Assembly: GCA_030830695.1 (NCBI GenBank)
Contig: JAURML010000079.1
Coordinates: 1-38,955, forward strand
Length of the DNA stretch: 38,955 nucleotides
DNA from: Caenibius sp.
Lineage (GTDB): Bacteria; Pseudomonadota; Alphaproteobacteria; Sphingomonadales; Sphingomonadaceae
Direction: 5' to 3'
The position numbers and the translations under genes were made by a program. The notes under the pieces were generated by a model, which saw nothing but the letters and a program-made list of their open reading frames with translations, made no database searches and had not been told where the DNA came from. Below, piece by piece: positions 29,465-29,811 of the stretch. How positions within the stretch are numbered: position 1 is the stretch's first letter; every line of letters starts with the position of its first letter.

Positions 29465-29498
29465 ACGGCCGCTTCCCCGGACTGGGGGAAGCGACCGT
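29465..29498 (-). terminator. Rho-independent terminator of the 27-residue peptide gene
   Basis: Arms of 14 bases (29465-29478 and 29485-29498) pair around a 6-base loop. The one imperfect pair is a G-U wobble in minus-strand RNA but a C-A mismatch in plus-strand RNA, which favours leftward function. After the stem the minus-strand RNA continues UUUCC. It lies 27 bases beyond the stop of the small peptide gene and about 100 bases upstream of gyrB. Confidence 0.7.
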
Positions 29499-29525
29499 CA
29501 GTGTTTCGCCTCGATCATGATGCGC

Positions 29526-29609
29526 TTAAAGCAGGGTGACGGCAAACATCAGCCCGCTGGTCGAAGCAGCAATAATGATCGGAAAGACCTGATTGGCAAT
29601 TGCACGCAT
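29526..29609 (-). CDS. Putative 27-residue hydrophobic membrane peptide
   Basis: The translation reads MRAIANQVFPIIIAASTSGL and then MFAVTLL: a short basic start and one hydrophobic span, so insertion in the membrane is likely. Support for expression is good. AGAGGAG (29616-29622) lies 6 bases before the ATG, the best Shine-Dalgarno placement in this part of the window, and a strong terminator follows 27 bases after the stop. No family is recognised. The frame is open upstream to 29717, but the longer version has no comparable ribosome binding site. The function could be a small membrane regulator or a type I toxin-like peptide; no antisense RNA was identified. Confidence 0.6.
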   Translation of the reverse strand: MRAIANQVFPIIIAASTSGLMFAVTLL

Positions 29610-29811
29610 GGTATTCTCCTCTGGTTGAATACCCTTCACGGCTCCATCGCCCGTCCATTTCCACGCCTGATCAATTCTGCAAAGCGGAACATTTCGCAAT
29701 CGCAAAAACCTCCACACACCTTGCTATTTTTGCAACTGAGCGTGTAAGCATGCCTGAGGCTACGATTTTCTATGGCATTGGCGCGGGCGTTTCATGTGCT
29801 AAACACAGGCC

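Follow-up and report, generated by a model that had tools for sequence, protein, structure and literature searches.

A conserved 27-codon micro-gene of Sphingomonadaceae has an upstream promoter element in common with the small RNA SuhB

The LsrB/VtlR regulon of Rhizobiales comprises the sRNAs abcR, nfeR1 and vrsA together with small proteins such as Atu1667 and BAB1_0914. In S. meliloti, the activator LsrB is reported to bind TGCA-N6-GCAT, a T-N11-A box, at positions -72 to -57 of the NfeR1 promoter (PMC10746234). For A. tumefaciens, direct activation by VtlR is described for abcR1, vrsA and the small-protein gene atu1667; the same source proposes a VtlR box that looks different and reports that AbcR of S. 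meliloti is not controlled by LsrB (PMC7486931). VtlR of B. melitensis is described as controlling AbcR2 and three DUF1127 proteins (PMC12595884). Closer to the organism considered here, SuhB of Sphingopyxis granuli TFA is reported to be growth-rate and PHB dependent and to repress thnR translation (PMC6563040).

Here we describe a 27-codon micro-gene between gyrB and ppk2 in a 38,955-nt contig of Caenibius sp. (JAURML010000079.1, assembly GCA_030830695.1), the whole of which we call the window. By analogy, its layout in sphingomonads resembles that of LsrB/VtlR regulons, with membership itself putative. In both, one promoter motif serves sRNAs as well as tiny proteins, and in both a T-N11-A box lies upstream of the -35, the sphingomonad box being centered at about -64 relative to a predicted start site near 29664 of the window, compared with -72 to -57 for LsrB (PMC10746234). 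The proteins differ, in that the rhizobial small proteins are reported to be DUF1127 (PMC12595884), whereas the sphingomonad peptides match no Pfam family. DUF1127 membership of either of the two 27-aa families described below is thus not supported.

The reading frame and its conservation

The first-pass annotation had proposed a genuine micro-gene that is transcribed as a unit by itself and encodes a hydrophobic single-span peptide. Its Shine-Dalgarno sequence, six-base spacing and 27-codon frame are all present on the minus strand (Table 1), with the ATG at 29609-29607 and the TAA at 29528-29526. Just 5' of the ATG, a small hairpin (GGUAUUC..GAAUACC, 29610-29633) holds the Shine-Dalgarno sequence in its loop. 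When the gyrB-ppk2 gap was shuffled with dinucleotides preserved, an ATG frame of 20-40 aa with AGGAG or GGAGG arose in 40 of 1000 shuffles, and one that was also uncharged past residue 9 arose in 2 of 1000. Conservation across relatives provides stronger evidence for the frame than this shuffle test does.

Table 1. Positions in the window of the micro-gene, its promoter element and its downstream hairpin
Feature	Positions	Strand	Basis
Inverted repeat TTGC-N7-GCAA, candidate T-N11-A operator	29721..29735	minus	Sequence; role putative
68-nt upstream promoter element, fixed internal spacing, common with suhB	29669..29736	minus	PWM alignment
-35-like TTGCGA	29694..29699	minus	Sequence; 17-nt spacing to -10-like box; role putative
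-10-like AATTGA	29671..29676	minus	Sequence and PWM alignment; role putative
Shine-Dalgarno AGAGGAG	29616..29622	minus	Sequence; SD-type site scored in 82/85 distinct copies
27-codon frame and stop, MRAIANQVFPIIIAASTSGLMFAVTLL	29526..29609	minus	Sequence, homologues, coding signal
15-bp hairpin then UUU, probable weak intrinsic terminator	29464..29499	minus	Folding

A tblastn search of sphingomonad genomes, which the first-pass annotation had called for, bore out conservation of the frame: the peptide matched eight other family genomes at E values of 3.8e-6 to 1.1e-3, with lower values by profile. Across 249 family genomes this search returned 25 matches at E <= 1, of which 19, including the window's own, were kept as having the same form (one, L017, has 31 codons). 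The others (L018, L020, L021 and L023-L025) are without the ATG, Shine-Dalgarno and 27-aa form and were dropped as chance. At E <= 0.01, a profile matched 44 of 396 genomes order-wide and a wider profile matched 70 of 397 genomes family-wide; the weakest of these matches include partial ones, and the wider profile is insensitive to the most divergent copies. Nearly all of 21 lower-scoring profile matches that we fetched are ATG-led frames of about 27 codons with a Shine-Dalgarno sequence 5' of the frame. Some of the guaA regions examined contain no such frame. Searching 289 genomes class-wide gave full or near-full matches only in the window's genome and in one family member; matches in five genomes outside the family are partial and were taken as chance.

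Named carriers (38 loci) include many Novosphingobium species and Croceicoccus estronivorus. The micro-gene is generally single-copy and holds a syntenic place in many genera, with a second copy in a few genomes only; a plasmid search with it returned nothing. At one locus (L131), two micro-peptide genes lie in tandem about 250 nt apart, and only the first carries the promoter element described below. No Pfam or NCBIfam model matches the peptide, which is of a size that annotation ordinarily passes over. On these sequence comparisons, the micro-gene stands on its own as a small-protein gene conserved within the Sphingomonadaceae as GTDB defines that family.

Among 85 distinct copies, the length is exactly 27 codons in 76 and the start is ATG in 83; residues 1-9 are net positive in 84, and no copy has D, E, K or R after residue 9. 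The first-pass annotation had also asked for a look at synonymous sites, and substitutions favor the reading frame: pN/pS is 0.605 over 854 close pairs, which are not independent, versus 0.80 and 1.27 when the frame is shifted. Entropy at the three codon positions is 1.10, 0.59 and 1.25. In comparisons of the window copy with the eight relatives closest to it, dN is 0.24-0.33 and dS is at least about 1.0, with saturation in one pair. These patterns show coding constraint on both the frame and its length.

The upstream element and the transcript

The main clue to the function of the micro-gene is a shared upstream element, which was absent from the first-pass annotation. An ungapped alignment of the upstream regions spans 68 nt and reads GTTGCAAAA..TGCAAC, 13 nt, TTTTCGCACTTGCA.. 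and then a -10-like box, which reads CATTTG or TATTTG in many relatives. The alignment scores above 27 in 81 of 87 regions under a matrix trained on those same regions, and the GCAA half of the inverted repeat is invariant in 30 aligned elements. From those 30, we built a sequence-only model (R1). In the window's genome, R1 finds the micro-gene's own element (29673-29736, E 1.4e-8, a training member) and one other strong site, G000:C125:14805-14866 (E 1.5e-6, outside the training set); the next site follows at E 0.15. Directly behind the second strong site lies an RNA assigned by Rfam to suhB/MmgR (RF00519).

The same arrangement recurs among relatives. At second-site loci, suhB reaches the Rfam gathering score in 21 of 22 (9/9 and 12/13), and the sole miss among the 13 (L217) has a different CU-rich RNA behind the element. 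R1 sites at E <= 0.1 occur in all 24 relatives searched, some of these sites being training members. Of 23 genomes in which no micro-gene was matched, 17 also have the element (E <= 0.01), and a suhB core lies downstream of 17 of 24 sites inspected from such genomes. These alignments and searches show that the micro-gene and the SuhB/MmgR sRNA have the 68-nt promoter element in common, although the latter is non-coding, whereas the micro-gene encodes a peptide. No Rfam family was found in the window itself.

Sorted into rough classes, 175 distinct element instances comprise 83 micro-peptide genes, 47 suhB genes, 19 longer secreted ORFs (UrcA-like), 5 members of a second 27-aa family and 21 others; because these come from loci fetched by element or gene searches, the proportions are not a census. 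The second family, of peptides like MTAFAKRVVELYVRGAARYPMPFIWTL, is unrelated to the first, has no Pfam match and lies directly 3' of the same element in several cases (family seen at L271, L277, L279, L150, L200 and L186). UrcA-like secreted proteins with the element were seen at L208, L267, L271, L277 and L279, and one element-borne longer secreted protein scores above the UrcA cut-off (TIGR04433); UrcA proteins thus have the same promoter element in relatives but are secreted proteins of about 100 aa. The micro-gene thus seems to belong to a regulon of small transcripts, SuhB among them. Co-regulation is not universal, because in one AT-rich genus (L130, L132, L136, L137 and L139) the element lies 3' of the micro-ORF, before a CU-rich RNA with no scored ORF.

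Two further arrangements were seen. At L217, L233 and L237, the element is followed by CU-rich RNAs not recognizable as suhB, which may be new anti-Shine-Dalgarno sRNAs. One genome (G110) has three suhB-like copies (L272, L273 and L274), each behind an element, and Rfam confirms L272.

Downstream of the frame, the first-pass annotation had placed an intrinsic terminator whose stem closes only as minus-strand RNA. The minus-strand hairpin is real (z -4.06). Plus-strand RNA, however, can form a stem at this place as well, with one mismatch (-38.8 kcal/mol, z -2.98); the U-tract amounts to no more than UUU, and a consensus terminator scan of the window did not flag the hairpin. Within 130 nt 3' of the frame, a stem of at least 7 bp and -10 kcal/mol occurs in 82 of 85 copies versus 66 of 85 shuffled, and such a stem with TTT close by in 29 of 85 versus 2 shuffled. 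Hairpin sequence, place and tail vary among copies, and in some a convincing terminator is lacking. Given these counts and the coding signal, terminators are common but variable, and what is conserved is the frame.

Alternatively, the transcript may work chiefly as an sRNA, or as an RNA with two functions, in which CU-rich UTR loops are anti-Shine-Dalgarno sites like those of SuhB and the micro-ORF is secondary. The common promoter would fit such a role, as would the UTR hairpins with CCUCUCCC-like loops in many relatives and the genus in which the element stands 5' of a CU-rich RNA with no scored micro-ORF. Against this, frame, length and residues are conserved while the hairpins differ in sequence and position, and the window copy has no CU-rich loop of the CCUCUCCC-like kind. 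The first-pass annotation held that a hairpin conserved where the frame is not would mean an sRNA; we observed the opposite, which favors a peptide, and we consider a mainly RNA function unlikely.

Candidate regulators and function

Which factor might read the element? The window's genome (97% complete) encodes eight LysR-type genes, one of them OxyR-like. None of the eight adjoins trxB, none is recognizable as LsrB by general features, and no matching NCBIfam model was found; the other eleven trxB loci were scanned for a LysR-type gene by pattern search only. For Novosphingobium aromaticivorans, public DAP-seq data cover 44 factors, LysR-type and OxyR-like proteins among them (GSE291618; PMC12352068). 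The element could instead be controlled by PhaR/AniA, the PHB sensor, which we judge quite unlikely. Of 35 genomes, 34 have a PhaR gene, the window's among them; PhaR of S. meliloti is reported to bind mmgR and repress it (PMC12542648), and suhB transcription in Sphingopyxis is described as favored by PHB (PMC6563040). A PhaR-type box, TGCRNYGCA, lies near element position +53 in 15 of 19 long-ORF promoters and 9 of 47 suhB promoters; among the 83 micro-peptide promoters, only 2 have it. This box therefore cannot be the shared operator, and we rejected PhaR as a common regulator for the micro-gene.

As to the product, the window peptide has an uncharged hydrophobic span of about 18 residues and a positive N-terminus, as expected of a small single-span membrane protein, with moderate hydropathy (19-residue maximum of 1.97). 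From these features we infer a protein that crosses the inner membrane once, with the N-terminus on the inner side. KdpF, YohP and MgtS are single-span small membrane proteins of 25-35 aa. Likened by form alone, the peptide shares with them its length, one hydrophobic span and a positive N-terminus; unlike them, it was found in a single family only.

A short, hydrophobic, single-span peptide could also be a type I toxin, as the first-pass annotation had suggested, but a gene that is conserved, mostly single-copy and syntenic across genera, with a strong Shine-Dalgarno sequence and a promoter in common with a conserved sRNA, gives that suggestion no support and makes it highly improbable.

The neighborhood of the micro-gene varies. 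Among 21 loci with long flanks, the divergent gene directly upstream is guaA in 14 and ppk2 in 4, the window among the latter; it is an acyl-CoA synthetase-like gene in one (L062) and none of the four tested genes in two (L058 and L059). In the window, gyrB comes about 160 nt or less downstream in the same orientation, which would fit a leader peptide or attenuator of gyrB, but a constant position before gyrB was not found (it starts <290 nt downstream in 7 of 21 loci, and elsewhere other genes intervene, often opposed), so that these differing neighborhoods exclude a conserved gyrB leader and leave this reading with a negligible chance.

A conserved small-protein gene with a SuhB-type promoter, LysR-type activation and a membrane peptide that tunes a transporter or sensor is, taken jointly, the best explanation, and one we regard as rather probable. 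One transcription factor would activate both the micro-gene and suhB; this factor is probably LysR-type, because TTGC-N7-GCAA lies near -64. The trigger may be growth or carbon-energy status, a role suggested by the reported growth-rate and PHB dependence of SuhB in Sphingopyxis granuli TFA and its repression of thnR (PMC6563040). The peptide would bind and tune an inner-membrane protein, a transporter or sensor being the likeliest guess for its partner, and would serve as the part of a response that acts at the membrane, with SuhB as the RNA arm that would block translation of catabolic mRNAs. More broadly, we tentatively propose a sphingomonad small-transcript regulon in which one LysR-type module would drive SuhB, two unrelated 27-residue families and UrcA, with the peptide as the membrane arm of the SuhB carbon/energy response.

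In the literature consulted, mainly openly readable, we found no earlier report of a SuhB promoter motif in sphingomonads, and the element described here is proposed as one. The micro-gene represents a widely conserved family with no model in Pfam or NCBIfam, and the common element sets this family next to a characterized sRNA, where its role can be tested. If the proposed regulon is true, its promoter module would launch almost only tiny products.
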